From Streptomyces sp. CB02923 (GTDB lineage: Bacteria > Actinomycetota > Actinomycetes > Streptomycetales > Streptomycetaceae), in NCBI RefSeq assembly GCF_001905005.1, contig NZ_LWKZ01000023.1:1-64000 (forward strand): a stretch of DNA of 64,000 nt, in the 5' to 3' direction. The notes beneath the pieces are model-generated. The model ran no database searches and was not told where the DNA came from. It saw only the letters and a list, made by a program, of their open reading frames with translations. Shown piece by piece: positions 247 through 15,832 of the stretch (positions are counted from its first letter, which is position 1; each line of letters starts with the position of its first letter). A program made the position numbers and the translations under genes.

Positions 247-1608
247 TCAGTGCTTCCCGGCGGCCGTGGACGTCTCCTGTGCCGGAGCGTCCAGGGCCGG
301 TGCGTTCAGGATGCGGAGCAGGGGGATCAGGGTGAGTGCGGTGAGCACGGCGGCCAGCGTGAATACCGGGCGCGGGCCGGTCAGTTCGGCGAGCCCGGCG
401 GCCAGCGCGGCCCCCAGCGGCATACCGCCCCAGCCGAGGCACCGGATGGCGCCGCTGATCCGGCCCAGCCGGCCCTGGGGGATCAGGCGTTGGCGCAGCG
501 AGATGACCACCACGTTCCACAGCCCGCTGCCCACCCCTCCGAGGAACGTGGCGAACGCGATCACCGTGACGTCGGCGCTCGCGGCAGGGGCGCCCAGCAT
601 GACGACGCCGGCCACCACGTCCGTGACCAGGATCCAGCGGACGCCCACCGTGCGGGCAAGGCGCGGGGCCAGCGCGGCGCCGATCACGGCACCGGCGCCC
701 AGCGTCGTCAGCAGCAGTCCGTAGCCGACCGGGGACAGGCCGACCGGGCCCTTGACGGTGTACACGACCAGTACGGCGAGCCAGGCGCTCCAGCAGCCCG
801 CCATGACCGTGCTCATGAGCGTCAGCGTGCGCAACGGCCGGTTGCGCCACAGGATTCTCAAGCCCGCGGTGAGCAGGTGCCGCCTGCGCCCGTCGAGCCC
901 GTCGTCGCCGTGCTGCCCCGCACCTTCGCCGCTTCGTACGCCGGGCTCGACCGCGTCCCCGTCAGGTGACGCGTCCTGGGCCACCGGCCGGTACTTCCCG
1001 TGCAGCATCAGCATGGCGCCGGCCGCGACGGCATAGAGCCCGCCGGCGCCGCCGACCGCCCATGCCGGGCCGATGGCGACCAGCAGCCCGCCCAGCGGCA
1101 GCCCCACGAACTCGTTCAGTACCGACTCCGTACCCCGGATCCAGGAGTTCGCCCACTCCAGCCGGTGGCGTGGCACCACCGACGGGACGAGTGCCGTCGT
1201 GGCGATGTCGGCGACGGCCTCGCCGACCGCGAGACAGCATGCGACCAGATAGAGGGCGTAGAGAACGAACAGGGCGGTGGCGTCGAGCAGGAGGGCGGCC
1301 AGGAGGGCGGCCAGTACCGCCGCGCGGAACAGGTCGAAGAAGATGATCAGATGGCGCCGGTCCATGCTGTCGACGAGCAGACCGACCACCAGCGGAGCAA
1401 CCGCCCAGGGCAGTGTGTGCGCCAGCTTCGCCCCCGCGACCAGGCCCGAGGATGCCGTCAGCTGTACGGCGAGCAACGGGATCAGGGCCAGCACCAGACC
1501 GTCGCCGAGGTTCGCCGATGCCGTCGCGGCCCACAGACGCGCGAAGACCCGGCCGTCCCCGCGCTGGTCGGGACGGCCGGATCGGTGCTGTTCCGCTGGT
1601 GTCAGCAC
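247..1608 (-). CDS. MFS transporter, drug/metabolite exporter type
   Basis: Predicted 453-residue major facilitator superfamily permease of the inner membrane, with about 12 hydrophobic segments in two halves separated by a polar linker near residues 205-240. The loop after the second segment reads DSMDRRHLI, matching the D-x-x-x-R-R/K motif A of the family, and an RLIPQGRLGRISG loop lies in the second half, as in enterobactin-exporter-like MFS_3 proteins. The start is a GTG that overlaps the stop of the upstream gene by 7 bases, so translation is probably coupled. The divergent LysR gene at 2298 may control it. The substrate is unknown. Confidence 0.85.
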   Translation of the reverse strand: MLTPAEQHRSGRPDQRGDGRVFARLWAATASANLGDGLVLALIPLLAVQLTASSGLVAGAKLAHTLPWAVAPLVVGLLVDSMDRRHLIIFFDLFRAAVLAALLAALLLDATALFVLYALYLVACCLAVGEAVADIATTALVPSVVPRHRLEWANSWIRGTESVLNEFVGLPLGGLLVAIGPAWAVGGAGGLYAVAAGAMLMLHGKYRPVAQDASPDGDAVEPGVRSGEGAGQHGDDGLDGRRRHLLTAGLRILWRNRPLRTLTLMSTVMAGCWSAWLAVLVVYTVKGPVGLSPVGYGLLLTTLGAGAVIGAALAPRLARTVGVRWILVTDVVAGVVMLGAPAASADVTVIAFATFLGGVGSGLWNVVVISLRQRLIPQGRLGRISGAIRCLGWGGMPLGAALAAGLAELTGPRPVFTLAAVLTALTLIPLLRILNAPALDAPAQETSTAAGKH

Positions 1609-2081
1609 AGAAGGGCGAACGTGGCACGCATGAAGGTGCCTTCACCGTGGGCGCGGACGGTGTGGGCGAACGCCGCCCGGGCGTTGGCCGGCGCCGGCAC
1701 CGTGGTGGGCGAGACCATGGGGAACTTGGCCAGCAGGCCGCGTACCTGCTCGCCGACGCAATTGATTCCCTTGTTCTTCAGGATGGTGTCGCCGATCGCT
1801 CCGCCGGCCCCGTCGAGAGACTCACCGGTCCACGCGGAAACCGCGTACTTCTTGCCTTCCACCTGCTCGAAGAAACGGAGCTGGGCGTTGCCTTCGCTTT
1901 CGGTGAGGAGGACGAAGATGCGACGCTCGGCGAGCTCCATGTTGAGCGCGTCCACCTTGCGCAGGATGGATTCCGGATCGCCGTACAAGTCGTGGACTTC
2001 TGGAGTCCAGGAGTACTGCCTGCAGGGTGCCGCCAAATCTGCGGCACCCCGCTCAGATGATTTTCGGGGTGTGACACTCAT
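1602..2081 (-). CDS. Hypothetical protein, first gene of the MFS exporter operon
   Basis: A 159-residue protein with no family I recognise. The ATG at 2081 is chosen because a GGAAGGGG ribosome binding site lies about 8 bases upstream; the frame is open further upstream but runs into the duplicated LysR promoter. The middle of the protein (a QLRFFEQVEGKKYAVSAW segment) looks like a soluble alpha/beta fold; there is no signal peptide or membrane segment, and the last residues end in a short hydrophobic tail. Its stop overlaps the exporter start, so the two probably act together, perhaps in sensing or resisting the exported compound. Confidence 0.7.
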   Translation of the reverse strand: MSVTPRKSSERGAADLAAPCRQYSWTPEVHDLYGDPESILRKVDALNMELAERRIFVLLTESEGNAQLRFFEQVEGKKYAVSAWTGESLDGAGGAIGDTILKNKGINCVGEQVRGLLAKFPMVSPTTVPAPANARAAFAHTVRAHGEGTFMRATFALLC

Positions 2082-2141
2082 GGAATATCCCCTTCCTCTG
2101 CTTCCGGCTGACTGCCCAGCAGGGCAGCCGTCTTCAGATTT

Positions 2142-2337
2142 CCGGATCCGGCGAAAAAGCACAATTGCAGGTTTCGCATGGCTGCTATACCTTCCCGGCA
2201 TGCGTGACCTTCATCGTTTACGTGTACTCGTCGAGATTGCCGAATCCGGCGCAAGACCATAATTGCGGGTTCCGGATGGCTGCTATACCTTCCGGGCATG
2301 CGTGACCTTCATCGTCTGCGGGTGCTCGTCGAGATAG
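2142..2337. repeat. 98-bp direct duplication of a LysR gene promoter and 5' end
   Basis: Bases 2142-2239 and 2240-2337 align at a fixed offset of 98 bases. Both copies contain an ATCCGGCG start, an AATTGC(A/G)GG element, GGCTGCTATACCTTCC and then an ATG followed by the codons of MRDLHRLRVLVEIA. Most differences in the coding part are synonymous. The second copy continues into the complete LysR gene; the first stops after 20 codons. Confidence 0.9.
2200..2262 (+). pseudogene. Truncated upstream copy of the LysR gene start (20-codon ORF)
   Basis: This ORF begins MRDLHRLRVLVEIAESG and ends at a TAA at 2260-2262. It is the duplicated first 14 codons of the LysR gene at 2298, followed by unrelated codons. 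It ends 35 bases before the real start and might act as a leader ORF, but it is most simply the by-product of a 98-bp tandem duplication. Several codons differ from the downstream copy (TTA and GTA in place of CTG and GTG), so the duplication is not recent. Confidence 0.75.
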
Positions 2338-3227
2338 CCGACCGGGGGTCGATGTCGGCCGCGGCCAGGGCGCTGTCCTTCAGTCAGCCGGCCGTCTCGC
2401 GGCAGATCGAGGCGCTGGAGCACGAGGTGGGCGCGCAGCTCGTACAGCGGCTGGGCCGTGGTGTCCGGCTGACCGACGCGGGCATGCTGCTGGCCGACCG
2501 GGCCCGCGGCATCCTGTCCCAGGTCGTCGCCGTCCAACAGGAGCTGCGGGCGATGAGCGGGCTGCGCGGCGGGCGGCTGCGGGTGGGCGGCTTCGCCGGC
2601 GTCAACGCGTATCTGCTGCCGCAGTCGCTGGCCCACTTCGCCGAACGCTATCCGCAGGTGGGGCTCTCGCTGTCCGGCTGGACCACGCGCCACCACGCCG
2701 CGGATCTGCGGTCCGGGCTGATCGACATCGCGCTGGTCACCGGCTGGGACCTCACCGGTGAACAGGCCTGCGGGCTGGACGTCCTGCCGCTGCTGGAGGA
2801 CGAGTTGTTCATCGCCGTCGCCCGTGACCGCCGGGCCGGCCGCGGCGGGTTCTCCCGGGGTGAGCTGCACGACCTGGCGGAGGAAACGTGGATCGAGGGC
2901 GCCCATCCGGACTGCCTCGGCCCGCAGCCGGAATTCGAGAGTGCGCTGGGGTTCGCGCCGCATATCCATTTCCAGGTCGGGGACTGGAGCGCCGTCAGCC
3001 GGTTGGTGGAAATGTCGGCCGGTGTCACACTTGTGCCGGGGTTGCTCGCGGTCCGCAGCAGTGGAAAAATCGCCCTGCATTCCCTGGCGGGAAAATTTCC
3101 GCCACGTCGTGTGTACATTGCACTTCCGGAGGGGCGGCACGCGCCCGCAGCGGAACCCATGATCGAAATTCTGTTGGAAGTGGCCCGCAAGGAGGGGGAA
3201 CTGCTCTCCGGTACGGCCATTCATTGA
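2298..3227 (+). CDS. LysR-family transcriptional regulator
   Basis: A 309-residue LysR-type regulator. Residues 1-60 form the winged helix-turn-helix, with the classic A-A-R-A-L-S-x-S-Q-P-A-V-S-R-Q-I pattern; the rest is a periplasmic-binding-protein-like effector domain. It is divergent from the hypothetical protein/MFS operon at 247-2081, the usual LysR arrangement, so that operon is the likely target. The intergenic region holds a 98-bp duplication carrying two copies of the candidate binding region. The effector is unknown. Confidence 0.9.
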   Translation: MRDLHRLRVLVEIADRGSMSAAARALSFSQPAVSRQIEALEHEVGAQLVQRLGRGVRLTDAGMLLADRARGILSQVVAVQQELRAMSGLRGGRLRVGGFAGVNAYLLPQSLAHFAERYPQVGLSLSGWTTRHHAADLRSGLIDIALVTGWDLTGEQACGLDVLPLLEDELFIAVARDRRAGRGGFSRGELHDLAEETWIEGAHPDCLGPQPEFESALGFAPHIHFQVGDWSAVSRLVEMSAGVTLVPGLLAVRSSGKIALHSLAGKFPPRRVYIALPEGRHAPAAEPMIEILLEVARKEGELLSGTAIH

Positions 3228-3370
3228 GCGTCCCCGATCGCCCGTGAACGTCCGTGATCGCCGATGGGCGTCGGTGATGGTCCGGGATGGTCCGGGATGG
3301 TCCGAGACGGTCCGGCTGGATCGATCTCGCGTTCGCGGGAGTCGGGAGCGGAGTCCTGCGGGACATCCGG

Positions 3371-3435
3371 TAAGGAACACCCGTAAGGAATATCCATAAG
3401 GGGCACCCGTAAGGGATATCCGAAAGGAATATGCG
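3371..3435. repeat. Five tandem 13-bp units directly before a start codon
   Basis: Five consecutive 13-base units start at 3371, 3384, 3397, 3410 and 3423, each beginning (T/A)AAGGRR and ending near CCG/TCC. The last unit ends three bases before the ATG at 3439. Every unit contains an AAGG(A/G) core able to act as a Shine-Dalgarno sequence. A looser 10-bp repeat (GATGGTCCGG, about four copies) lies just upstream at about 3276-3316. Confidence 0.9.
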
Positions 3436-3438
3436 GCC

Positions 3439-5103
3439 ATGGATGCTCGGTTGCGCGCGGTGTGTGATCTGATGGTCGAGCTGGTGCGTGAACAAGCCGG
3501 TCTGCACGAATACGACGGCCACGTACAGGACCTCTCCCCGGACGGCATCCGCTCCGGACTCGCGGGGCTCGGCGGCCCCGCCCCCGGCCCCCGCGAACCG
3601 CCCCCCTCCCTCGCCCCGCCCGACTCTCCGGGATCACCCAACTCTCCCGAATCACCTGACTTTCCGGGATCGCCCGACTCTCCCGAATCACTCAACTCTC
3701 CCGGATCGCCCGACTCTCACGACGCCGCGCACCTCCACATCTTCGAGGCGGCCCTGCGCACGGTCTACGGCGACCTGGAGATGCACCGCCGCAACCCGCT
3801 GCCCCACCTGCTCAACCTCGACGTCTGCTGTTACGACCGGGAGTACGCACCGGCCGCCGACCGGGACCGCGCCAAGCGCGCCCACCTCGCCAACTGGCCC
3901 GACGCGATCGACGCGTCCGTCCGCGCACTCGACCAGGTCGACGCCCCCACGGCCCGCGCCGTGCTCGACACGGCCGACAGCCTCACCGCCGTCATCCCGC
4001 CCGAACTGGCCGGCACCGACATCGCCGTACGCGCCCGCAGCGCACACGGGCGTCTGATGGCCTGCCTGAAACACGCAGCCGACCACGGCGACCCGCGCTC
4101 CGCCCTCGGCGAGCGGGACCTCGCCCTGCTCATGGGCGCCCCCGAAGGGCTCAAAGTCAGCGTCCCCCGGCTGGCCGACCGTGCCGACCAGGAGGCGGAA
4201 CGGCTGCGCGCACTGCTGCGTGAGGCGTGCCACCGGCTGGCTCCCGGCCGTCGCCCGCACGACCTCGTACGCGATCTCGTACGAGAACACCCGCCGGCCG
4301 ACGCCGTACTGGACCGGGCGCGAGCCGTCACCGACGAACTGATGGCCTTCACCCGCGGCCGGGCGCTCCTCCCGCACCTCGACGGCGAGGTGCTCGTCGG
4401 CCCCACGCCGCCGTCGCGACAGGACACCTGGGCCATGATGAGCTTCGCCGCGCCCGGGGAGCCCGACGCCCCGTCCTGGTACCACATCACCTTGCCGGGG
4501 CCCGGCTGGAAGGACGAGGACGCCGCGGAGTGGCTGACCGTCTTCAGCCCGGCCATGCTTCCCGCCGTCACGGCACACGAGGTGGTGCCCGGACACTTCG
4601 CGCACGCCCGCTGCCTGCGCAGGGCCGGCAGCCCTGTCCGACGGATCCTGCAGTCCCTCACCTTCATGGAGGGCTGGGCCCATTACGGGGAAGAGCTGAT
4701 GGTGGAGGAGGGTTTCCGGGCGGCCGACCCCCGCTTCGCCATCGGCGTCTGCATGGAAGCACTGATCAGGGTGACCCGGCTCGCCTGCGCGATCGGTGTG
4801 CACACCGGAGCCATGGACGTACCGGAGGCCGCCCGGCGCTTCGAGGCGGACACCTACCTGTCGGGCCGGGCCGCCCGCGCGGAGGCCGAGCGGGCCACCT
4901 TCGACCCCACCTACGGCCGCTACACCTGGGGCAAGCTGGCCCTGCGCGACCTGCGGGACGAAGCCCGGCGACGCTGGGGCGACGCCTACTCTCCCTTGCG
5001 CTTCCACAGCGCTGTCCTCGCCCTGGGCTCCCCGCCGCTGGGCCTGCTGCCGACCGCCCTCGCCGAGGGCCTGCCGGAACGCCCCACCCGCCTGCTCGGG
5101 TGA
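3439..5103 (+). CDS. DUF885-family putative zinc metallopeptidase
   Basis: A 554-residue cytoplasmic protein of the DUF885 family. The family hallmark H-E-x-x-P-G-H is present (H380, E381, H386), followed about 25 residues later by an EGWAHYGEEL segment with candidate third ligand Glu; together these suggest a gluzincin-like metal site. The substrate is unknown, and the family is only loosely linked to peptidases. Residues about 63-95 form a Ser/Pro/Asp-rich tract built of 6-residue repeats (18-bp units), which looks inserted into the N-terminal domain. The start is the ATG after the 13-bp SD-like repeats. Confidence 0.85.
   Translation: MDARLRAVCDLMVELVREQAGLHEYDGHVQDLSPDGIRSGLAGLGGPAPGPREPPPSLAPPDSPGSPNSPESPDFPGSPDSPESLNSPGSPDSHDAAHLHIFEAALRTVYGDLEMHRRNPLPHLLNLDVCCYDREYAPAADRDRAKRAHLANWPDAIDASVRALDQVDAPTARAVLDTADSLTAVIPPELAGTDIAVRARSAHGRLMACLKHAADHGDPRSALGERDLALLMGAPEGLKVSVPRLADRADQEAERLRALLREACHRLAPGRRPHDLVRDLVREHPPADAVLDRARAVTDELMAFTRGRALLPHLDGEVLVGPTPPSRQDTWAMMSFAAPGEPDAPSWYHITLPGPGWKDEDAAEWLTVFSPAMLPAVTAHEVVPGHFAHARCLRRAGSPVRRILQSLTFMEGWAHYGEELMVEEGFRAADPRFAIGVCMEALIRVTRLACAIGVHTGAMDVPEAARRFEADTYLSGRAARAEAERATFDPTYGRYTWGKLALRDLRDEARRRWGDAYSPLRFHSAVLALGSPPLGLLPTALAEGLPERPTRLLG
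3630..3722. repeat. In-frame 18-bp repeats in the DUF885 gene
   Basis: About five 18-base units encode hexapeptides of the form S-P-(D/N)-(S/F)-P-(G/E). The tract keeps the frame and adds a flexible acidic Pro/Ser stretch of roughly 33 residues near the N-terminus. Confidence 0.85.
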
Positions 5104-5399
5104 TGCAGCCGATCCACCACAGCACGATCGGCGTTCGTCTCCGCGCCGGAAATTCGGACCCATTGCCCTTCGGGCAAGGCGAAACGTGACGCTTTCCTTG
5201 CGTACACCAACGAGTGAAGTTACCTGCCGTGCATTCCCCCTCACCCGTAAGGCTGCCACGGTGAAGGAGGGGGGAGAACGGGCGTACTGACTCGCGGACT
5301 TGCTCTCGACGAGAACTGTCTCAAGAACCCACTCGATCGAGAACCGACCCGAGAACGCGCTCAAAGGGGCTGCGGAGCAGTCGGAAATGGGGAGAAGAG

Positions 5400-5801
5400 A
5401 TGAGAAAGCCGCCTGCGTGGTGGGTCCTTGGCAGTGCCGTTGCCGCTCTGGCAGTGAGCGTGTTGGGGGCAGGACCGGCCCTCGCCGCCCCGGGCGCGTA
5501 CGTCACGGTGGGGTACGGGATCAATGCCTGCGAGTCCGGAAAGCTGTGCCTCTACAAGGACGTGAACCACAACTCCCGCGCCACCCATGCCGTCATGCTG
5601 ACGAATCGCAACGTCAACAGTCTGAGCAACTACGAGTTCGACAACAAAGCCAGCTCCTACGTCAACAGGAGCGGGCGCGTGGTCACGCTCTACAAGGGCC
5701 AGTTGCACAAGGGCGCCGAGATGACCCTCGACCCGGGCAACCGCGCCCGGGTGTTCCCCACGGGCTGGGACGACACCATCACGTCGATCAAGTTCCACTA
5801 G
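5400..5801 (+). CDS. Secreted peptidase inhibitor I36-like protein
   Basis: A 133-residue exported protein. Residues 1-30 are a typical signal peptide (basic MRKPP, hydrophobic core, ALA-AP cleavage site). The mature part has a crystallin/SMPI-like fold signature: CESGKLCLYKD near the start, then S-S-Y-V-N and repeated aromatic/Gly positions, as in the peptidase inhibitor family I36 (Streptomyces metalloproteinase inhibitor relatives). Two cysteines near the mature N-terminus probably form a disulfide. A GGGAGAAGAG binding site precedes the ATG. Inhibitory activity is inferred from the family only. Confidence 0.8.
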   Translation: MRKPPAWWVLGSAVAALAVSVLGAGPALAAPGAYVTVGYGINACESGKLCLYKDVNHNSRATHAVMLTNRNVNSLSNYEFDNKASSYVNRSGRVVTLYKGQLHKGAEMTLDPGNRARVFPTGWDDTITSIKFH

Positions 5802-6204
5802 CCCGACCCGAAGCGGTGCGGTGCTGGTCGCGGTCACTTTCGTGGCGGCCTCGGGATGTATGTGACGTCAAATGCCGCCTAGGGATGGGTTGTCGGTAAC
5901 AATCGCGTTCCGCCCGTTCATCGAGTGATCAGAGCGATCCAGGTAATCAGAGTGATCCGTGTGGTTTGAGTGGACCGAGGCGCATTCGCGGCACAGGCGA
6001 TGGTCTGGCCATGTGGACGGAAGCCGGCCTGAGCGCTTCCTCGTCACCGCCATTTCGGCAACTCCCGTACAGAACAGTCGAATCGCTACGCCACAGGACG
6101 TCTCTGCCAAGGCGAATGGGTGCCCCTGTCAAGAGGTGACGAAGGTCCGGCTCGACAGGGGAACGTAAAGAAAACCTCTTGAGTCGGCCCCACCCCCGGC
6201 GTTC

Positions 6205-6220
6205 ATTTCATGCATGAAAT
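6205..6220. promoter_or_regulatory. Perfect 16-bp palindrome ATTTCATGCATGAAAT
   Basis: The site reads the same on both strands over all 16 bases. Such short AT-rich palindromes in a GC-rich genome are usually binding sites for dimeric regulators (MarR, TetR or MerR types). It lies 491 bases before the P450 start and 2 bases from a second dyad. Confidence 0.6.
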
Positions 6221-6222
6221 CT

Positions 6223-6249
6223 CAACCCCTAATGTTCTCCCTAGGGTTG
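6223..6249. promoter_or_regulatory. Second operator-like dyad, CAACCC...GGGTTG
   Basis: Six-base arms (CAACCC at 6223 and GGGTTG at 6244) flank a 15-base centre whose edges add a further CTA/TAG match. It sits directly next to the 16-bp palindrome, suggesting a two-site operator or two regulators at one promoter. Confidence 0.45.
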
Positions 6250-6392
6250 ATGTATGAGGTTTTTTGTCGCCTGGCCGGTCGGTTAGCGTCGGTATTTGTG
6301 CGGTTCGGTCAGGACCGGCCGCCGCACAGGGGCATTCAAGGCGTGGGCGATCGACCTGCTCAAGAGCTTGGAGGAGGCAGGAGGGACGACGG

Positions 6393-6506
6393 ATGCGGCT
6401 TCTCGTGGGCCTGGTACGGGCCGAGGGCGCCGGTGTGCTGAGACAAGCCACACCGGACGCACCCTTCGGTGACCAGGACTTCAGCCGTCCGGCGTCAACT
6501 TCCTGA
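6393..6506 (+). CDS. Small ORF (37 aa) upstream of the P450, function unknown
   Basis: An AGGAGGG binding site lies 7 bases before the ATG. The 37-residue product begins MRLLVGLVRAEG and ends FSRPASTS. Third-position GC is about 70 percent, lower than in neighbouring genes but higher than random AT-rich sequence here. It lies in the same direction as the P450 at 6696 and could be a leader ORF or a precursor peptide, but it has no aromatic-rich core. It may also be chance. Confidence 0.3.
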   Translation: MRLLVGLVRAEGAGVLRQATPDAPFGDQDFSRPASTS

Positions 6507-6695
6507 CCACAGTGGGCCTCCCGGCGCCGGTGGGTGAGCGCGCGCCGTCGGGACAGGCGACCGGTTCCCTCGCCGGGGAGCACGCGGCACGAACGGCGCG
6601 GGCGATCGGGAGTGAGGGGGAGCCTGCCGACCGCAGGGGCCATGTCCCCTCGCGTGCGCCTGTGCCCCTCATCCGTCACCGTTGGAAGGAATGAC

Positions 6696-7880
6696 GTGAC
6701 CACGTCCTACGAGCTTCCCGAGCTCACCACCGAACCGCCTGCGGTACTGCGTATGAGTCCGCTGCTACGCGATCTGCAGGAAAGAAGTCCGCTGTGCCGG
6801 GTCAAGACTCCGGCCGGCGACGAGGCATGGCTGGTGACCCGCTATGCCGAGCTCAAAGCCTTGCTGCTGGACGAGCGGCTCGGTCGGGCCCACCCCGATC
6901 CGGCGAACGCGCCCCGTTACGTCCGGAACCCGTTCCTGGACATCCTCATCACCGACGACGACCCCGCCAGCGCGCACAAGCTGCACATCGAGACCCGCGG
7001 GCTCCTCACGCCGAACTTATCGGCCAAGCGTGTCCGCGACCTGCAGCCCAAGGTGGAGGCCATCGCAGAGCAGGTGCTGGAACGATTCATCGCCCAGGGA
7101 CAGCCTGCCGACCTGCACGAGCAACTGTCCCGCCCGTTCTCCCGATCGGTGCTCTGCGAACTCCTCGGCGTGCCGGCGGACGAGCGGGAGCACCTGGAGG
7201 AACTGCTCTCCGGCCTGGCCGGGGTGGACGATCCGCAGGCCGTGGGCCGCACGCGGAACTTCTACGCCTACCTGGAAGACCTGGCGGCCCGTAAGCAGGC
7301 CGCCCCCGGCGACGACGTGATGTCCCGGCTGTCCGCGGGCGGGGTCCCTTCCGAGCGTGTCGGCGCCCTGGCCGCGATGCTGCTGTTCGCCGGGCTGGAC
7401 GCCGTCGCGAGCCATATCGACCTCGGTGTGGTGCTGCTCGCGACCAACCCCGAGGCGCGACAGGCCGCGCTGGGAGATCCACGCGTCATGATCAGTGCCG
7501 TCGAGGAGATCCTGCGGTCGGCCAAGGCCGGTGGTTCGGTGCTGCCCAGGTACGCCAACGCCGACGTCGAGATCGGCGACGTGACCATCAAGGCGGGTGA
7601 GCTCGTCCTGCTCGACTTCACCCTTCCCAACTTCGACGGGCGGGCCTTCGACGAGCCGGAGCGCTTCGACATCAGCCGCTCGCCCAACACGCACATGACC
7701 TTCGGCCACGGCATGTGGCACTGCATCGGCGCCCCGCTGGCCCGGCTGGAACTGCGGACGATGTACCAGCTGCTCTTCACCCGGCTGCCCGCGCTGAGAC
7801 TCGATCTGCGCGTGGAGGAACTCGAAGTGCTGGGCGGACGTCTTGGGGCCGGCTTCTCCGAGCTGTCCATGCGGTGGTAG
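6696..7880 (+). CDS. Cytochrome P450 (RiPP locus, enzyme A)
   Basis: A 394-residue soluble class I bacterial P450. The haem-binding loop [10 protein letters not shown] supplies Cys343, and the E-x-x-R pair lies in AVEEILR. The I-helix reads [10 protein letters not shown], so the usual acid-alcohol Asp-Thr pair is Asp-Ala; loss of this Thr is seen in P450s with altered oxygen chemistry. The start is the GTG at 6696, 6 bases after a GGAAGGA binding site; the longer frame upstream has poor codon use. The gene converges on a tiny peptide ORF and a second P450 on the other strand. Confidence 0.9.
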
Positions 7881-7936
7881 CGACTCCACCGATGTGAAAC
7901 GGGCCTTGCGTGACGTCTTCGCACGGTCTGTGTTCC

Positions 7937-7970
7937 GGGCATGCTGCTGCGCAGGTGCAGCAGCATGCCC
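7937..7970. terminator. Bidirectional terminator between the P450 and the tiny peptide gene
   Basis: Perfect 14-bp inverted repeat (GGGCATGCTGCTGC and its complement) with a 6-base loop. It lies 56 bases after the stop of the plus-strand P450 and 46 bases after the stop of the minus-strand peptide ORF, so it can serve both. Confidence 0.85.
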
Positions 7971-7995
7971 AGGCCGCTTACAGCTCTCGCGGCAA

Positions 7996-8015
7996 GGTCC
8001 GTTCGAACGCGGACC
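7996..8015. terminator. Short inverted repeat just after the tiny peptide stop
   Basis: GGTCCG and CGGACC arms flank a TTCGAA-containing centre, ending one base before the minus-strand stop codon. It may be a minor terminator or an mRNA-stabilising hairpin of the peptide/P450 transcript. Confidence 0.4.
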
Positions 8016-8087
8016 CTAGAGCCACACATCCGGCTCCCAGTAGCTGGCGGGCTTGTTCCAGATGATGCGTCGGATAGCAGCGATCAC
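8016..8087 (-). CDS. Candidate RiPP precursor peptide (23 aa), aromatic C-terminus
   Basis: A tiny ORF immediately after the minus-strand P450. A near-consensus GGGAGG binding site sits inside the end of the P450 gene, 8 bases before the GTG at 8087; an alternative GTG at 8096 overlaps the P450 stop but leaves no spacer. The product begins MIAAIRRIIWNK (a short amphipathic, leader-like helix) and ends SYWEPDVWL, with Trp and Tyr enriched at the C-terminus. Known P450-modified peptides (cittilin, biarylitides, tryptorubin) come from similarly tiny precursors beside a P450 that cross-links aromatic side chains. The assignment is an inference from size, binding site, composition and neighbours. 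Confidence 0.65.
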   Translation of the reverse strand: MIAAIRRIIWNKPASYWEPDVWL

Positions 8088-8092
8088 GTCAT

Positions 8093-9271
8093 TCACCTCC
8101 CTTCGTAAGCGCGGGCTTGGCGGGGGGCCTTGAGTGCGTGGCGCAGGGTGACGCGGCGCAGGGTGAAGGGGCGAGGGAGGACAGAACCGGACACCAGGGG
8201 CCGGGCATCGCCGCCGCTGACGGTCAGGTGGGCGTCCTGCGCCAGAGCGGTGACCGCCTCGGTGGTCAGGCTGTGTGCGACGGCCGCTCCGGCACAGGTG
8301 AAAGGACCGGCGCTGAAGGGGATGTAGGGGCCTTGCCCATCTGGCGCGTCCCAGCGTTCGGGCCGGAACATCTCGGGACGGTCCCAGCGGTGTGTGTCGT
8401 GGTGCAGCAGGTAGGGACTGACCGACAGGATCGTGCCCGCTGCGAACGGCCGCCCGCCGAATTCGACGGGGTGGGGGAGAGGCCGGCCGACCATCCAGAC
8501 GAACGGACGGTGGCGTGCGGCCTCGCGCACCAGCCATTCGGCGGGCCACGGCCATGGCGGGCCGGGCGGGTGGTGAAGACAGGACAGCAGGAGCGCCCAC
8601 GCCACCGCATAGCCGATGTTGCCCACGATCGACTGGAACAGCAGCACGTACAGGTTTGCCACGGTCCGGTCGGTGAGCTCCTCGGGACAGGCTCCGATCA
8701 CGGCGTCCAGCACATCCTGCGGCTCGCCCCTTCCGGGGCCCTCCGCCCGGCGGCTACGCACATGATCGGTGATCGCGGCCAGCAGCTTGGGACGCAGCAT
8801 TTCCGCCCGCGCCCGCTGCCGCACGTACGGCTGACGGGCGGTCAGTCCGGCCGCCACTGCCTGTGCCGTCTGCCGCCGCAGGGCCGGCGGGGCACCGGGG
8901 TGCAGCAGTACGTCCTCCGTACACCGGTACACCAGCAGCGGCCCCGCTTCGGGCCACCGGCTGACCGGGCCCAGCTCCGCCGCTGCCTCGGCCACACACT
9001 GACGGTAGGCGGGAAGGTGCGCCCGCATCAGGTTCCGTACGGCGCGGCCGAGGGTGATCTGGGCGGACCGCGACGGCAGCATGTCCCCGAAGAATGTGGA
9101 CATGCCGCTGTGGAAGACCGGGTCGCGCAGCACCGTGAGCGCCAGGTCGGTATCTCTCACGCACCAGGCGCCCCACGGAAGTCGGAACACCTCTGCCGGA
9201 CTCCGGCGTGCGCAGTCTTCGATGTACCCCAGCGGATCACGCCGGAACCGGCGCATTTCCTTCATGCCCAC
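8093..9271 (-). CDS. Atypical cytochrome P450 (RiPP locus, enzyme B)
   Basis: A 392-residue P450-fold protein. The haem loop is FSAGPFTCAGA (Cys326), with an FRPERW meander and a REAARHRP segment in the K-helix area. The I-helix region (FQSIVGNIGYAVAW) lacks the usual A-G-x-(D/E)-T motif altogether, so oxygen activation must differ from a standard monooxygenase. The GTG at 9271 is 9 bases after GGAAGG; an ATG at 9265 is possible. The stop overlaps the sequence leading into the 23-aa peptide gene, so enzyme and peptide are probably made from one transcript. Likely role: cross-linking or oxidising that peptide, alone or with the convergent P450. Confidence 0.85.
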   Translation of the reverse strand: MGMKEMRRFRRDPLGYIEDCARRSPAEVFRLPWGAWCVRDTDLALTVLRDPVFHSGMSTFFGDMLPSRSAQITLGRAVRNLMRAHLPAYRQCVAEAAAELGPVSRWPEAGPLLVYRCTEDVLLHPGAPPALRRQTAQAVAAGLTARQPYVRQRARAEMLRPKLLAAITDHVRSRRAEGPGRGEPQDVLDAVIGACPEELTDRTVANLYVLLFQSIVGNIGYAVAWALLLSCLHHPPGPPWPWPAEWLVREAARHRPFVWMVGRPLPHPVEFGGRPFAAGTILSVSPYLLHHDTHRWDRPEMFRPERWDAPDGQGPYIPFSAGPFTCAGAAVAHSLTTEAVTALAQDAHLTVSGGDARPLVSGSVLPRPFTLRRVTLRHALKAPRQARAYEGR

Positions 9272-9341
9272 CGCATGCGCCCTTCCGGAGGACCGGCACC
9301 CGGGCCACCCAATTCGCCGCCAGTGCCCGGCTTTTGCCCAT
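9237..9341 (-). CDS. Small ORF (34 aa) overlapping the start of P450 B
   Basis: A GGGGAAGG binding site precedes this ATG by 6 bases. The 34-residue product contains AANWVARVPVLRKGACGG and ends out of frame within the first codons of the P450. It may be a leader ORF that couples translation to the P450, a second precursor candidate, or chance. Codon bias is weak. Confidence 0.3.
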   Translation of the reverse strand: MGKSRALAANWVARVPVLRKGACGGHEGNAPVPA

Positions 9342-9540
9342 CGACAACCTTCCCCAATGCCGCGAGGGCGGCACTCCACCCGTAAAGGTGAACGCACCGG
9401 ACATCCGACCTTCGTCACTTCAGAGGCCGGTGCTTGGCTGACGCATCGCCACAGTCAGTTCATGGCTGGGCAGTTGTCGTCCGCTCAGACGCCGCGTTCT
9501 GGGGGATTACGGCACGAGCGTGAGCGCGACCCTCCCCACT

Positions 9541-9574
9541 TCGCGAACGTTCCTGCCTCGCGAACCTTCCTACT
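9541..9574. repeat. 17-bp tandem duplication over the stop of the alkylation repair gene
   Basis: Units 9541-9557 and 9558-9574 share TCGCGAAC-TTCCT. The minus-strand TAG of the next gene (9570-9572) lies inside the second unit. Confidence 0.75.
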
Positions 9575-10265
9575 TACCGTGCTGCCGACGCACCATCTCA
9601 GTGATCCAGACGGGCGCGAACGGGGACGTGCAGCCCGGGGGCGTCGGATAGTCCTTGAGCACCGCAAGGCGCTCGCCGATGTCGATGGCACGCGCGCGGT
9701 GCTCGGCGTGCGCGATCCCGATCTGCGCCAGGCAGTGGTTCATCGCCCACTGCAGGCGAGCGGGGGCGTCCTTCATCTCCGCCTCGATCACGTCGAGCAG
9801 CCCGGCGAGGTCGAGGCCCTCGGATTTCTTGGCCACACGTTCGGTGGTCAGCGCCCAGCCGGCACTCGCGACCACTGGGTCCGGGTCGGTGGACCAGGCC
9901 AGGCGAAGCTCTTCCGCGTGCGGGTTCTTTTTCACCACGTAGTTCACGAGCCAGTCGTGGACCTTGGGCGTGTGCGCCTGGCGCACCATGACGTCCAGCT
10001 CGTCGCGCTCGAACGCCTTCGGGCGGCAGATGAGGGTGGCCAGCAGCCTGGCCGCGGAGTCACCCGTCTCCCACAGCTGATACGCGAGTTCCTGCTGCGT
10101 CTTCAGCCGCTTCGCGAGCGCGCGCAGCTTGCTGAGATTCACGGCATGATCGTCACCGTGTTTCGCGTTCACGGCGCGTGTCTTCGGGTCCTCAAGCCCG
10201 GCCAGCTCGGCCATCACCTCGGCCAACGCGGTCTCGGCCACCTCAGCCTCCCGTTCCTCACCCAT
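9570..10265 (-). CDS. DNA alkylation repair family protein (AlkD-like)
   Basis: A 231-residue soluble, mostly helical protein that fits the AlkD/AlkC HEAT-like repeat family of DNA glycosylases. Conserved features include the KLRALAKRLK segment, the DELDVMVRQA helix, and a VHDWLVNYVVKKN motif, followed by STDPDPVVASAGWAL, as seen in this family. Family members remove N3- and N7-alkylated purines; activity here is inferred. The ATG at 10265 is the natural start. A decayed piece of uppP abuts its 5' side. Confidence 0.75.
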   Translation of the reverse strand: MGEEREAEVAETALAEVMAELAGLEDPKTRAVNAKHGDDHAVNLSKLRALAKRLKTQQELAYQLWETGDSAARLLATLICRPKAFERDELDVMVRQAHTPKVHDWLVNYVVKKNPHAEELRLAWSTDPDPVVASAGWALTTERVAKKSEGLDLAGLLDVIEAEMKDAPARLQWAMNHCLAQIGIAHAEHRARAIDIGERLAVLKDYPTPPGCTSPFAPVWITEMVRRQHGK

Positions 10266-10328
10266 GGAGGTTCAGCCTACGACGGAAGACGTCCTCCTGC
10301 TTTCCGCGGGCCTGCGGCATCCGTTCCC

Positions 10329-10440
10329 TCGCATGCGGACTCAGTACCCCCGCGCTGACCAGCGCGAACAGCGCCACGCCCAGCAGGATCCGATAGATGA
10401 CGAACGACATGAAGCTCTTCGTCGTGATGAAATGAAAGCT
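10329..10440 (-). pseudogene. Remnant of the uppP 3' end
   Basis: The minus strand encodes FHFITTKSFMSFVIYRILL followed by GVALFALVSAGVLSPHA, nearly the same as the last transmembrane helix of the intact UppP at 14945. Over 103 bases (10329-10431 against 14962-15064) I count about 84 percent identity. There is no upstream uppP sequence and no start, so this is a gene fragment in the same orientation as the intact gene. Confidence 0.85.
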
Positions 10441-10758
10441 ACGAGTACCCCCTTCGCCTCCCTGACCTGCGCTTTCATCCACTCCGCGAGATCGAATGGG
10501 GGGGATGGGAGAGGAATGGGAGAAGCGGTCACCCAATCCGCCCCAAGGGCTGTGAGGAACCTTTCATCGGTCTCCCCGAGAGCGCTGAAGTGCGCATCCT
10601 CGGATGCCAGGGCTCCACTGCCCCAGAAGCACCGAGATCTACCGACATGGCCCCGCGCGTCCCGTGCGAGAAGATAGTCAATGATCAACGGGTACGGGAG
10701 TTTCGCGCGGCCGGTCGAGTTCGCACTCCGGCTTCCAGGCCGGGCGAACCGCGATGGA
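10441..10758. other. 318-bp region with no recognisable intact gene
   Basis: A minus-strand frame beginning near 10688 (MIIDYLLARDARGHVG) is open into the uppP remnant, but resembles no family I know and its codon bias is weak. The stretch is best read as a scar between the alkylation repair gene and the broken regulator. Confidence 0.4.
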
Positions 10759-11580
10759 TCAGAGCGGTCCGGGCTGAGGAGAAAGGCGGGTGGGCCGTGC
10801 CGCCCGAGACTGCGTAGCTGCCCAGATGGCGAGGAGTTCGAGCCGGTCCTCGGATCCGGTGCCGGGTTCGGCGGTGTAGGTGATCAGGTCGTGCACGGCT
10901 CGGCCCGGCAGGGGCAGGTCGAGGGACTGGACGGTCAGTTCCAGGTGGCCGACGTCGGGGTGCTGGAGCCGTTTGACGCCGTCGTGGCGCATCAGGACGT
11001 CGTGCGCGGCCCATTGGCTGCGGAACTCCGGGCTACGGGTGGACAACTCGCCGACGAGTTCGCGCAGTGCCCGGTCACGGGGCTCGCGCCCGACCTCGGC
11101 GCGCGGCAGGGCGGCGGTGGCGACGCCAACGGCGCCCCAGTCGACGAAGAAGTCATGCGCACCGAGGTCGAGGAAGAGGTAGCGGGCGATGTTGGGGCGG
11201 CCGCGCTTGTCGATGGTGGCGCTGGCGAACATCGGCGCGAGCAGGGCTCGGGCCAGGGGGTTGCCGACGACGACGTCCGCGCGGCCGTTGCGTACGAATG
11301 CCGAGGACATCGTCATGGAGTCGAGCAGCCACTGGATCCGGGGCGGGACTTCGACGTCCCTGCGACGCGACGGCGTGCGACTCGCGTGCCGCGATGACCG
11401 GGCCAGGTCGAACAGGTAGGTGCGTTCGTCGTCCATTCGCAGGGCACGAGCGACCGCGTCGAGGACGTCTGCGGACACGCCGCCGATGTGGCCCTTCTCC
11501 TACCGCGTGTACCCCTCCGTGCTCACGCCGGCGAATGCCGCGTTGGCCAGTGTGCCGACGCCAATTCTCGCGTCCGGTTC
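10759..11580 (-). pseudogene. Broken XRE/MmyB-family regulator (in-frame stop in the HTH)
   Basis: From 11478 down to 10759 the frame encodes a full MmyB-like ligand-binding domain (SADVLDAVARALRMDDERT, then YLFDLA and WLLDSM...AFVRNGRADVVVGNPLARAL). Upstream in the same frame the helix-turn-helix is still visible as AFAGVSTEGYTR, but the next codon is TAG, where intact relatives read a Leu-Glu-Gln-Gly stretch. The residues after the stop are also diverged. The N-terminal part before about 11580 no longer resembles the family. DNA binding is therefore lost unless the stop is read through. Confidence 0.75.
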
Positions 11581-11673
11581 AACGCGTTCATCGCGTGGGA
11601 TACCACAGGTGTACGGCTCCGCCGAAGTCACACAACAATTCGTCGAACAGTAATTCGCCCTTGGAGTGTGATC

Positions 11674-11841
11674 ATGCCACCCGGGTTGTCCCCCGCCAAT
11701 GCGGTTGCCAAGGAAGAGGCTTGGTGGATTCGCCTCGCTGATCCTCCCGGCAGGTACGGGAGCTGGGCGCGGTTCCTCTGGAGGGAGTGCGCTGAGCTGG
11801 GAGGACGCGGATCGTCATCGACGCCGGTACCCGCCTCGTAG
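11674..11841 (+). CDS. Small ORF (55 aa), doubtful
   Basis: An ATG with GGAG 8 bases upstream opens a 55-codon frame with a Trp-rich middle (EEAWWIRL, SWARFLWREC). No relative is recognised and codon bias is only moderate. It lies in the gap between the broken regulator and the SpoIIE gene, which otherwise holds nothing clear apart from promoter-like AT-rich patches around 11930-12000. Confidence 0.25.
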   Translation: MPPGLSPANAVAKEEAWWIRLADPPGRYGSWARFLWRECAELGGRGSSSTPVPAS

Positions 11842-12058
11842 TCCTTGCCGGCCGCTGCCGGGCACCTGCAACTGACGGCACGTCCTTTGGCGATGGCTTG
11901 CTGGATGCGAGGGGGTGGTGTTACCGAGCTGGGCGGATTATTCAGCAGTCGAGGGGAGGATGTCGGAGGTATGGCAAAGCACAGGCGGTAGTTATATGCC
12001 GTCGGTAGCGTGGGGGGTTGCTTACCTACGAGTGAATGGAGGGTGGGGATCCGCGTCA

Positions 12059-13672
12059 GTGGATTCCCGGTCCATGGTCTCCTTACCCGAGCAGAAGAGC
12101 TCTCGCGGTGTAGGACCTGTTGCGCAGCGCTGTGACCCGTATCCGGTGATGACCGTGGACGCGGCCGGCATCGTGCTGTCGCACAACGAGTCGGCCGTAG
12201 CTCTGTTGGCGCAGGTAGGCGTGGGCGCACTGCTGGAGGACTTCGCGCCCACCTGGCTGGTCGAGGCCCACCGGAAGCATGTCGGCGGTACGCGGCAGAA
12301 GTCGTCGGCGTGGGTCGGTGGCCGGATCGGCGGACAGCGTGTGAAGGCGCTTGCCGGGCCGGGGGTGGACGGCACGGTGACGTGGTGGTTGGTCGGTGAC
12401 GGTGGTGCCCCGGCGGGCGTGCCGTGGGAGCGGGCGCGAGCCGCTCTGCTGCAGGAGCTCGCCTCGGAGTTGCCGACTGCGCTGAATGTCGAGGACTGCG
12501 CGGCTGTGATCGTGCGGTGGGCGGCCCGGCATCTGGCGCACACGGCGGTCCTCGTCGGCAAGGGCGACGGACACTGCTTCCCCGTGACGCGGTGCACCAC
12601 CGAAGGGCCGACGGCACAGGAGCGGATCGCCCTGGACCCCGGGCAGCTTCCGGGCCTGGCGGAGGCGCTGCAGGGGCTGCCTGCGGTGTCCTCCTGCTGG
12701 ATAGATCCCCACGAGGTGCCGGCCTGGGCACTGCCCGAGGCTTTCGCGGATGGTGTCTGCGAGATCGGTTCGGTTGCCGTGGTGCCGTTGCCGGGACATG
12801 GTGTGCCGGCCGGATGCCTCATTCTGCTGCGCCACCGCCAGGAGGCTCCGTTCACCGCTGCTGAAGAGTCCTTCGCCCAGCTCTTCGCCGCACGTGCGGG
12901 TGTCGCCCTGTCCATCGCCCGCAGCCAGGTCCACCAGGCTCAGGTCGCCGACGTGCTGATGCGTGATCTGTTGCCGCCCGAACTCGGCCGGGTGCACGGT
13001 GTTTCCTTCTCCGGCCGCTACCGCGCCGCGGCGATGGACGAACGCATCGGCGGCGACTTCTATGACCTGTATCCCGCTGACACACCGGAGGCCGAGACGG
13101 TCGCGGTGCTCGGTGACGTGTGCGGCAAGGGAGTGGAAGCCGCGGTCACGGCCGGCAAGGTGCGCACCATACTGCGGGCGCTGGTGCCGTTCGCCGCCGA
13201 CCACACACGGGTACTGACTCTCCTCAACCGTGCGCTGCTCGCCTACCAACAGACGCCCTTCGTGACCATGGTCCTGGTCACCGTGGTGCGCCACCACGCA
13301 GAGGTACGGCTGCGCATCACGAGCGCGGGCCATCCCGCGCCGCTCGTCGTGCGCACCATCGGCCAGGTCGAAGAGACCCAGACGATCGGCACGCTGGTCG
13401 GCGCCTTCGTCGACCTTGAGTTCAAGACCGCCGAGGTCGCTCTGGGACCCGGCGAGATCTGTCTGCTGTACACCGACGGGATCACCGAAGCGCGTGGTGG
13501 GCCACTGGGCGATGCGATGTTCAGTGAAGACAGGCTGCGCACCGTGCTGGCCCAGTGCGCCGGGATGCCGACCGAAGCAGTCACCGAACGCGTGCAGATG
13601 ATCGTCGCCCAGTGGGTGGGGGAAGGCCGGCACGACGACATGGCCGTTCTGGCGATCGGCTCCGCCCCATGA
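12059..13672 (+). CDS. PP2C-family SpoIIE phosphatase with GAF domain
   Basis: About 537 residues: an N-terminal PAS-like segment (DPYPVMTVDAAGIVLSHNE), a central GAF-like sensor, and a C-terminal SpoIIE/RsbU phosphatase with GGDFYD, GDVCGKG, YTDGITE and HDDMAVL metal-binding motifs. Such enzymes dephosphorylate STAS anti-sigma antagonists and so release stress or development sigma factors. The GTG at 12059 has GGGGA 9 bases upstream; an ATG at 12074 is also possible. The next gene, a B12-binding protein, follows 48 bases later and may give the sensory input. Confidence 0.85.
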   Translation: MDSRSMVSLPEQKSSRGVGPVAQRCDPYPVMTVDAAGIVLSHNESAVALLAQVGVGALLEDFAPTWLVEAHRKHVGGTRQKSSAWVGGRIGGQRVKALAGPGVDGTVTWWLVGDGGAPAGVPWERARAALLQELASELPTALNVEDCAAVIVRWAARHLAHTAVLVGKGDGHCFPVTRCTTEGPTAQERIALDPGQLPGLAEALQGLPAVSSCWIDPHEVPAWALPEAFADGVCEIGSVAVVPLPGHGVPAGCLILLRHRQEAPFTAAEESFAQLFAARAGVALSIARSQVHQAQVADVLMRDLLPPELGRVHGVSFSGRYRAAAMDERIGGDFYDLYPADTPEAETVAVLGDVCGKGVEAAVTAGKVRTILRALVPFAADHTRVLTLLNRALLAYQQTPFVTMVLVTVVRHHAEVRLRITSAGHPAPLVVRTIGQVEETQTIGTLVGAFVDLEFKTAEVALGPGEICLLYTDGITEARGGPLGDAMFSEDRLRTVLAQCAGMPTEAVTERVQMIVAQWVGEGRHDDMAVLAIGSAP

Positions 13673-13692
13673 CAACCGTTCGACAACCGTGA
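13671..13692. repeat. 11-bp tandem duplication at the SpoIIE stop
   Basis: GACAACCGT occurs twice with an 11-base period (13671 and 13682), beginning on the second base of the TGA stop codon. Confidence 0.7.
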
Positions 13693-13720
13693 GCGATCCC
13701 GCTCGGAGAAGGTGAACCGC

Positions 13721-14821
13721 GTGACCGGTGATGACGAGGCTGGCAGCCTCGCCGAACTACGTGATCAACTGTGGGAGGCGCTCGGCGAGTGCGACGAGAC
13801 GCGCGCTGTCGCCGTCGCGCGTCGGGCGCTCGACGCGGCGGAGCCCGCGCAGGCACATACCGTGGGCCGTACGGCTGCTGACCGGATACGAGGTGCGGGA
13901 GAACGGGTCCTGCTCGAACTGATCGCACCGACTCAGGAGCGCGTGGGCCTGGCCTGGGCGGCCAATGACATCACGGTGGCGCAGGAACACGCTGCCACGG
14001 CCATCAGCGAGCGGTGTATCGCGGCTGTTGCCGACGCCACCGCTCCCGCCCCTTCCGGTACGTATGCGGGCAGGGTCACGGTGGCGTGTGTGACCGGTGA
14101 GTGGCACGCCCTGCCCGCACGGCTGCTCAGCGAAGTGCTGCGGCTGCGGGGCTGGCGCGTCGACTATCTCGGGGCACAGGTCCCCACCAGGCATCTGGTC
14201 GACCACGTGTGCCGCACGCGTGCACAGGCGGTGCTGCTGTCCTCGTCCATCCCGTTTCTTCTGCCCGGCGCCCACAACGCGATCACCTCGTGCAGGGGGG
14301 CCGGCGTTCCGGTACTCGCCGGAGGCGCCGCGTTCGGCCCACAGGGCCGCTACGCACGGCTGATGCAGGCCGAGTGGGCCGAGGACGCGACCGACGCGGC
14401 CGCCCTGCTCGGCCGGGACCTGCCGCGGCCCCGTGAACACGCGGCCCGTTTGGCGGAGACGGACCTGCCGCACCTGAGCGACCAGGAGTACACCATGCTC
14501 CGCCGAACCAGTCTGCAGTTGGTCAAGCAAACCTTCGTCGACGTCGAGGACGACTTTCCCGCAACGCACCGGTACAGCCAGTACCAGCGGGAGCGCACCA
14601 TCGAGGACATCGACTTCATCGTCAGCTTCCTCGCCACCGCTCTCTACGTCGACGACGTCGACCTGTTCACCACGTTCATCACGTGGACCGCGGGCATCCT
14701 GGCAGCCCGCGATGTCCCGCCGCGATGCCTGATCCCCGCGCTGGACTCGCTCCTCAAGCAGCTCAAGGACTTCCCTCGCGTGGTCGGCATTCTCACTGCG
14801 GCCCGCGGTCTCACCTTGTAG
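13721..14821 (+). CDS. B12-binding protein with CarH-like photoreceptor motif
   Basis: A 366-residue cobalamin-binding protein without an N-terminal MerR domain. It has W79-x9-E89-H90 (WAANDITVAQEH), the motif that marks adenosylcobalamin photoreceptors of the CarH/LitR type, and T-G-E-W-H129, which fits the lower axial histidine of the B12 Rossmann domain. The last 120 residues (from about LSDQEYTMLRR) are a helical output domain of unknown type. The GTG at 13721 follows GGAGAAGGTGA by 6 bases. Its place after a SpoIIE phosphatase suggests a light- or B12-regulated partner-switching pathway. Confidence 0.8.
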   Translation: MTGDDEAGSLAELRDQLWEALGECDETRAVAVARRALDAAEPAQAHTVGRTAADRIRGAGERVLLELIAPTQERVGLAWAANDITVAQEHAATAISERCIAAVADATAPAPSGTYAGRVTVACVTGEWHALPARLLSEVLRLRGWRVDYLGAQVPTRHLVDHVCRTRAQAVLLSSSIPFLLPGAHNAITSCRGAGVPVLAGGAAFGPQGRYARLMQAEWAEDATDAAALLGRDLPRPREHAARLAETDLPHLSDQEYTMLRRTSLQLVKQTFVDVEDDFPATHRYSQYQRERTIEDIDFIVSFLATALYVDDVDLFTTFITWTAGILAARDVPPRCLIPALDSLLKQLKDFPRVVGILTAARGLTL

Positions 14822-14854
14822 GTATCCAGGAGTGTCAGGAAGATGTGGTGAACC

Positions 14855-14890
14855 GGCCGTCGGACTCCGCCGCCGCGGCGTCCGACGGCC
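14855..14890. terminator. Bidirectional terminator between the B12 protein and uppP
   Basis: An 11-bp perfect inverted repeat (GGCCGTCGGAC and complement) with a 14-base GC-rich loop lies between two convergent genes. Confidence 0.75.
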
Positions 14891-14944
14891 ATTTCGCCCC
14901 CAATCTTGGCCACTGCCTCTCGTACGAGGCCCGGAATGGCCCCC

Positions 14945-15832
14945 TCACCCCGCCGATTCCCCCGCGTGCGGGCTCAGGACGCCTGCGCTGACCAGGGCGA
15001 ACAGTGCGACACCCAGCACAATCCGGTAGATGACGAACGGCATGAAGCTCTTGGTGGTGATGAACTTCATGAACCAGGCGATGACGGCGTAGCCGACGAC
15101 GAAGGCGATGACCGTGGCGAAGATGGTCGGTCCCCAGGAGACGTGGGTCGCGGTGGCGTCGCTGCCGAAGGCGTCCTTGAGTTCGTAGACGCCGGAGGCC
15201 AGTACGGCGGGGATGGCGAGGAGGAAGGAGTAGCGGGCCGCCGACTCGCGGGTGTAGCCCATCAGGAGGCCGCCGCTGATGGTGGCGCCGGAGCGGGAGA
15301 CGCCGGGGATCAGGGCCATGGCCTGGCAGACGCCGTAGATCAGGCCGTCCTTGACGTTCAGGTCGGTGAGGGTCTTGCGCTGTTTGACGGCGCGGTGGCG
15401 GCCGCCGGACTCGTCGCGGGCGGCCAGGCGGTCCGCGATGCCCAGGACGACACCCATGACGATGAGGGTGGTCGCGATCAGACGGAGGTCGCGGAAGGGG
15501 CCCTCGATGGCGTCCTTGAGGGTGATGCCCAGGACGCCGATCGGGATGGAGCCGACGATGACCAGCCACCCCATCTGGGCGTCGTGGTCGTGCCGCAGGT
15601 CGCGGTTGACGAGGGAGCGTGCCCAGGTCGAGATGATCCGCGCGATGTCCTTGCGGAAGTAGATCAGTACGGCGGCCTCGGTGCCGATCTGCGTGATCGC
15701 GGTGAAGGCGGCGCCGGGGTCCTGCCAGCCCGCGAACGCCGCGGTCAGGCGCAGATGGGCGCTGGAGGAGATGGGCAGGAACTCGGTCAACCCTTGGACC
15801 AGGCCGAGGATGAAGGATTCAAACCAGTGCAT
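14945..15832 (-). CDS. uppP: Undecaprenyl-diphosphatase UppP (BacA)
   Basis: A 295-residue polytopic membrane enzyme that converts undecaprenyl diphosphate to the monophosphate carrier of cell-wall synthesis. The two family signatures are present: GLTEFLPISSSAH near residue 14-26 and PGVSRSGATISGG near residue 174-187, which form the active site. The length is normal for the family. A second, decayed copy of its 3' end lies at 10329-10440. UppP activity gives background bacitracin tolerance. Confidence 0.95.
   Translation of the reverse strand: MHWFESFILGLVQGLTEFLPISSSAHLRLTAAFAGWQDPGAAFTAITQIGTEAAVLIYFRKDIARIISTWARSLVNRDLRHDHDAQMGWLVIVGSIPIGVLGITLKDAIEGPFRDLRLIATTLIVMGVVLGIADRLAARDESGGRHRAVKQRKTLTDLNVKDGLIYGVCQAMALIPGVSRSGATISGGLLMGYTRESAARYSFLLAIPAVLASGVYELKDAFGSDATATHVSWGPTIFATVIAFVVGYAVIAWFMKFITTKSFMPFVIYRIVLGVALFALVSAGVLSPHAGESAG

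Follow-up and report, generated by a model that had tools for sequence, protein, structure and literature searches.

Does the short minus-strand ORF located where a P450 gene of this DNA ends encode a RiPP precursor, and which of the two nearby P450s would act on the peptide? P450-modified RiPPs are known and are growing in number, according to the accessible parts of recent publications (PMC12299652, PMC12352619, PMC11450843). In the window (the whole 64 kb stretch of Streptomyces sp. CB02923 DNA analyzed here), two P450 genes on opposite strands converge, as the original prediction had described, and the ORF directly follows the minus-strand P450 gene (Table 1). Sequence evidence makes it likely that this ORF and the minus-strand P450 constitute a P450-modified RiPP pair, that is, a minimal two-gene cassette in which the enzyme introduces an aromatic link. 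The more specific assignment of this link to Trp17 and Trp22 is probable, at a lower level of confidence. The reading draws on the gene structure, the conservation of the pair, purifying selection, the co-variation of enzyme and core, and the lack of other widely shared neighbors among the genes called.

Table 1. Features around the two convergent P450 genes (positions in the window)
Feature	Position	Strand	Description	Basis
NysL/PimD/AmphL-type P450	6696..7880	plus	judged to lie outside the cassette	PDB matches; no orthologue at relatives' loci
Hairpin, 16 bp	7935..7972		between the convergent genes; possible shared terminator	
Precursor peptide gene	8016..8087	minus	23 codons, GTG start	sequence and conservation
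Block common to five closely related genomes	8016..9407	minus	P450, precursor and up to ~140 bases upstream	blastn
Cytochrome P450	8093..9265	minus	390 aa; predicted peptide-modifying enzyme	ExxR, heme Cys, I helix
GGGAGG ribosome-binding site	8096..8101	minus	within the terminal codons of the minus-strand P450 gene	sequence

The ORF encodes MIAAIRRIIWNKPASYWEPDVWL, in which a leader, MIAAIRRIIWNKPASY, is followed by the invariant Trp17 and by a second Trp, Trp22, at i+5. A short minus-strand ORF with a near-consensus GGGAGG site inside the end of the P450 gene had been predicted, and both are present in the sequence as described. The GGGAGG site (8101-8096) is separated by 8 nt from the GTG at 8087, the TGA of the P450 gene is located at 8095-8093, and the stop codon of the peptide ORF occupies 8016-8018. 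Similar ribosome-binding sites precede the other 47 precursors of the family described below. An alternative in-frame GTG at 8096, which overlaps the P450 TGA, would lengthen the peptide by three residues. As the five closest relatives show ATG at the position of the GTG at 8087, 23 codons is the likely length.

Regarding the enzyme, the minus-strand P450 retains the ExxR motif (E248 and R251) and the heme ligand Cys324. The classical P450 I-helix motif has an acid-alcohol pair. In the corresponding region of this enzyme, residues 208-223, neither Asp nor Glu is found in 32/32 aligned sequences (the window P450 and those of 31 of the 44 named loci, an alignment used for both residue comparison and modeling). 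Both P450s had been called atypical; this description fits the minus-strand enzyme, whereas the plus-strand enzyme is an ordinary macrolide-type P450. An AlphaFold2 model of the minus-strand P450 has a mean pLDDT of 86.3, Foldseek gives only the P450 fold for it, and 9ulw, its best match in the PDB, carries no name beyond "Cytochrome P450".

Relatives of the minus-strand P450 were collected by a P450-alignment scan of named genomes, from which the best 80 of 143 relatives were retained. Among those 80, 44 are close (L056-L099; 50-83% identity in the best segment) and span ten genera, including Streptomyces, Embleya, Kitasatospora, Nocardia, Saccharothrix and Streptoalloteichus. The set of 49 P450s used hereafter consists of the window P450, these 44 loci, and G229, G004, G209 and G044, all with at least 50% identity to the window P450, one fragment excepted; G240, G020, G031, G038, G128, G165 and G146 were left out as apparent repeats of named loci. 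A further scan of 394 same-class genomes (E <= 1e-90) gave three matches, the window and two known members, and missed the known member G044, in which the P450 is broken. The original prediction had proposed examining whether strains that keep the P450s also keep the peptide ORF. For the minus-strand P450 they do, with a precursor-type ORF of 17-28 codons behind the P450 in 48 of the 49 close relatives. These 48 precursors share a purine-rich ribosome-binding site and a leader resembling MAATMRRIFTNKPARRW, and in 47 of them the start falls no more than 73 bases before or 44 bases after the P450 stop, the figure for L073 being meaningless as its P450 frame is broken. The search rule was written after some family peptides had been inspected, and the score of 48/48 for real loci is obtained by construction. 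A rule of this kind that adds a Trp condition recovers nothing behind the 36 distant P450s (L100-L135) and selects 8 of 9600 shuffled sequences. Some loci count against the cassette reading. In L093 (Nocardia transvalensis), the P450, the ribosome-binding site and the ATG are kept, and no recognizable precursor follows them (region after 5107); in G044 (L049) and Streptomyces sp. SID3343 (L044/L073), the P450 frame is broken and the precursor is intact. Either sequencing error or decay may account for the two broken frames.

Conservation, comparison with shuffled sequences and purifying selection together indicate that the ORF is a real gene. Purifying selection acts on the precursor gene (pN/pS 0.3-0.4): six W-x4-W members give a ratio of 0.40, and twelve from Nocardia give 0.31. 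A profile built from the 48 peptides, with that of the window among its rows, has one match across the window's 64 kb (E 3.6e-10); it also matches 43 of the 44 close loci and none of the 36 distant loci. Such a gene is easily overlooked, since none of the five clade peptides searched, that of the window included, shows an NCBIfam match, and four of the five, again including that of the window, lack a Pfam match as well.

The precursors have a simple core pattern. All 48 contain an invariant Trp, which is followed by a second Trp at i+2 (n=20), i+5 (n=6), i+6 (n=7) or i+7 (n=3), or by Tyr at i+5 (n=12, all from Nocardia). The core of the window peptide is W-x4-W (i+5). The Tyr of its SYW sequence is not conserved among the family peptides, and the likely linked partners are therefore Trp and Trp. 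The proposal that the Trp/Tyr-rich C-terminus is the modified core thus holds with respect to the RiPP-precursor anatomy, with a C-terminal aromatic core conserved together with the minus-strand P450, and finds no support with respect to this Tyr. L061 and L062 contain a third Trp, and the cores of L061, L062 and L063 (WEGWGMHWAE, WNHTWEW and WFGTGLNWYYGG, respectively) have extra aromatic residues, in which more than one link is possible. Streptomyces iconiensis harbors two cassettes (L062 and L085) with the differing cores WNHTWEW and WNW.

In the P450 tree, the 49 rows form one clade (100/100). Nineteen WxW rows constitute one branch (97/89), and the remaining 30 rows, which include one WxW row, L085, are grouped less firmly (89/69). 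The spacing follows this tree, on which the five spacing classes require six changes as a raw count. At residue 215 of the I helix, Gly occurs in 16/16 long-spacing enzymes and in 0/16 WxW enzymes among the 32 aligned; L085, the WxW row placed among the long-spacing enzymes, carries Arg. The co-variation of Gly215 with spacing is largely phylogenetic.

By sequence, the group of the window P450 appears as the sister of the WxW branch. WxW P450-RiPPs of Amycolatopsis xylanica, Streptoalloteichus hindustanus and S. spectabilis have been reported (Hu 2023; Liu 2024; via the review PMC11002830), and the accessible part of this review describes their P450s as forming bonds from Trp C2 to a backbone N and from Trp C3 to N1 of Trp(i+2) (PMC11002830). 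A. xylanica and S. hindustanus each contain one strong clade member, followed by a WNW and a WDW peptide, respectively. Judging from the organism names and the WxW cores, these members are probably the characterized WxW enzymes. The window pair resembles the WxW systems in its leader type (RRIF.TKP) and in the position of the precursor right behind the P450. It differs from them in the core, which is W-x4-W instead of W-x-W (WNW, WDW) and so does not contain the i/i+2 Trp pair, and in residue 215, which is Gly in the window P450 and not Gly in the WxW rows.

The most likely mechanism, based on this sister branch and on conservation, would be as follows. Translation of the precursor is probably coupled to that of the P450 gene. 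The conserved N-terminal RRI..NKPA would allow the leader to dock on the P450, and docking would place the invariant Trp17 at the heme. The P450 would then oxidize Trp17 and couple it to Trp22 at i+5, yielding a Trp-Trp macrocycle that is 2 Da lighter. If the WxW sister branch is a guide, Trp C3 may be bonded to Trp' N1, with an additional C2-backbone N closure. The leader would finally be removed by proteases coded elsewhere. An alternative chemistry within the same RiPP pair would be hydroxylation, conversion of one Trp to a pyrroloindoline, or a link other than one between the two Trp residues. SroB both links and hydroxylates Trp, as stated in a review, and P450 RiPP chemistry is described as variable even within one enzyme in the part of PMC11450843 consulted. 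Nevertheless, in 48/48 precursors the invariant Trp has another Trp or Tyr after it at a class-specific spacing, with variation in the remaining core residues, which makes such chemistry an unlikely account of the pair. The conserved aromatic partner could also be read out by something besides cross-linking.

Turning to other known systems, the aromatic side-chain link on a short precursor predicted here is shared with cyptides and other P450-linked RiPPs (cittilin, biarylitides, roseovertin, rubrin and lapparbin), and a short precursor gene conserved beside the P450 gene, by which cyptides are recognized, is found in 48/49 cases. The links described in the accessible parts of the sources span i+1 to i+3, whereas the link predicted here spans i+5 (PMC12299652, PMC12352619, PMC11002830). 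A biarylitide is ruled out by the 23 residues of the window precursor, biarylitide precursors having five residues according to the part of PMC13417212 consulted. The pair does not qualify as an aminopyruvatide system either: the minus-strand P450 scores 57.5 bits against an ApyO-type cut-off of 525, and none of the nine window proteins encoded from 247 to 17457 has an MNIO or other aminopyruvatide-enzyme domain.

Atropopeptides (tryptorubin, varsorubin and scabrirubin) also derive from two-gene P450 RiPP clusters with Trp-rich cores and are defined by a KSLK-type leader motif, according to the accessible part of PMC11450843. Depending on the cleavage site, YWEPDVW would fit the atropopeptide core pattern xWxxxx. 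The atropopeptide precursors SvaA and ScaA carry the KSLK-type motif and were found in two strains that also bear the cassette; SvaB and ScaB were recognized in S. varsoviensis and Embleya scabrispora via these precursors. SvaB and ScaB show 57% identity to each other over ~350 residues, whereas each aligns with the window P450 at 38-40% identity over 39-48 residues only. Because the KSLK-type motif occurs in 0/48 family precursors and the SvaB/ScaB alignment is limited to these short segments, membership of the window pair in the atropopeptides is excluded. The window-type cassettes of S. varsoviensis and E. scabrispora are L057 and L060.

The nearest outgroup P450s found are six enzymes with 32-35% identity, which are followed by peptides ending in HHI. 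The outgroup peptide tested (G272, L053) matches NCBIfam NF053510, the hyalucidin A family RiPP precursor, at 1.2e-10. The hyalucidin A family, which is placed in the nearest outgroup, thus resembles the window pair in having a precursor behind the P450; its peptide ends in YLYHHI, whereas the window peptide gives no NF053510 match, and membership in this family was rejected. HHI-ending peptides follow the outgroup P450s at loci L050-L055 and at L138, the latter peptide, from A. xylanica, ending in RWYYYHHI.

The cassette appears to be confined to two genes. Within the first 20 kb of the window, only the block 8016-9407 is alike in five close genomes. By blastn, its near edge falls at 8013-8018 in four of them and at 8031 in the fifth, and its far edge at 9272-9407; the block stops at the peptide stop codon in four of the five genomes. 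Gene clustering around the 49 inputs revealed no other widely shared family beside the P450-precursor pair, yielding only an antisense ORF inside the P450 (six Nocardia loci) and one family in three loci, and a linked tailoring gene was rejected on this ground. The GC3-based gene caller used in this clustering found the P450 itself in 38 of the 49 inputs, and the 44 named loci had flanks of ~4 kb; neighboring genes may therefore have been missed. The neighbors in the window include an MFS transporter, a LysR regulator, a DUF885 protein, a DNA-alkylation-repair protein and an MmyB-type regulator. DUF885 (3439-5103) was considered as a dedicated peptidase and rejected, as it lies outside the shared block. 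A shared 14-bp terminator had also been predicted between the convergent genes. The hairpin itself is real and slightly longer, with 16 pairs (the 106-nt stretch containing it has a z of -5.6 relative to shuffles), but it has no T tract and is absent from the listing of the terminator scan.

The short ORF might also be read as a regulatory or attenuator peptide, or as a helper that stabilizes the P450, and not as a substrate. Its overlap with the end of the P450 gene, its short, helix-like and basic N-terminus, and the finding of no linked protease or exporter in the neighbor clustering are all compatible with such a role. However, the C-terminal aromatic residues are class-specific, come with peptide lengths that change by 3 to 12 residues, and track the I helix, which is unexpected for an attenuator. 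Moreover, the ORF is located downstream of the P450, not upstream, and the outgroup P450s carry a curated RiPP precursor at the same place. A regulatory or helper role is hence very unlikely.

Concerning the plus-strand P450, its best PDB matches are NysL (E 2.4e-152), PimD (1e-145) and AmphL (2.6e-139), and the genome also encodes a paralogue with 59% identity next to a type I PKS with a thioesterase (G000:C23 near 604500; L149). The plus-strand P450 itself stands without PKS genes among the nine window proteins scanned. No orthologue was found in 55 loci around relatives, the best matches there being other P450s in L062 (34%) and L074 (28%) and the rest weaker, and the best matches in 11 relatives' genomes show 33-44% identity; therefore, this enzyme is not an orthologue kept with the pair. 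The original model, in which both P450s act on the peptide to give two links, gains something from the convergence of the genes, 135 bases apart, and from tandem P450s making hyalucidin A (as the title of the cited work states), but the polyene-macrolide type of the plus-strand enzyme, its PKS-adjoining paralogue and its lack of an orthologue at the 55 loci make it the least credible of the explanations.

The earlier suggestion of a possibly new class survives in that the family lies outside the atropopeptides; it is tempered by the sister relationship to the WxW branch, whose members from two organisms have probably already been characterized. Family peptide words gave no match in the papers searched, but the family may well have been listed before among predicted clusters. 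From its sequence, the family seems to be a branch, with larger rings, of a natural-product type discovered recently; the W-x4-W core of the window peptide predicts a bigger Trp-Trp ring. If the link is as predicted, the rings would be larger than those of i+1 to i+3 links, with Trp-Trp bonds and, in Nocardia, Trp-Tyr bonds. It is an even question whether one P450 lineage keeps the first Trp fixed and couples it to an aromatic residue, Trp or Tyr, at a distance of five, six or seven residues, with its reach partly set by the I helix (Gly215). If this is true, the lineage would produce several large macrocycles, both Trp-Trp and Trp-Tyr, that exceed the i+1 to i+3 links in the parts of the literature examined, and its natural variation could be used to learn what determines ring size in a P450. 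With 48 enzyme-core pairs in five spacing classes and an I-helix residue that co-varies, the choice of the second residue by the P450 becomes testable by exchanging cores and this residue.
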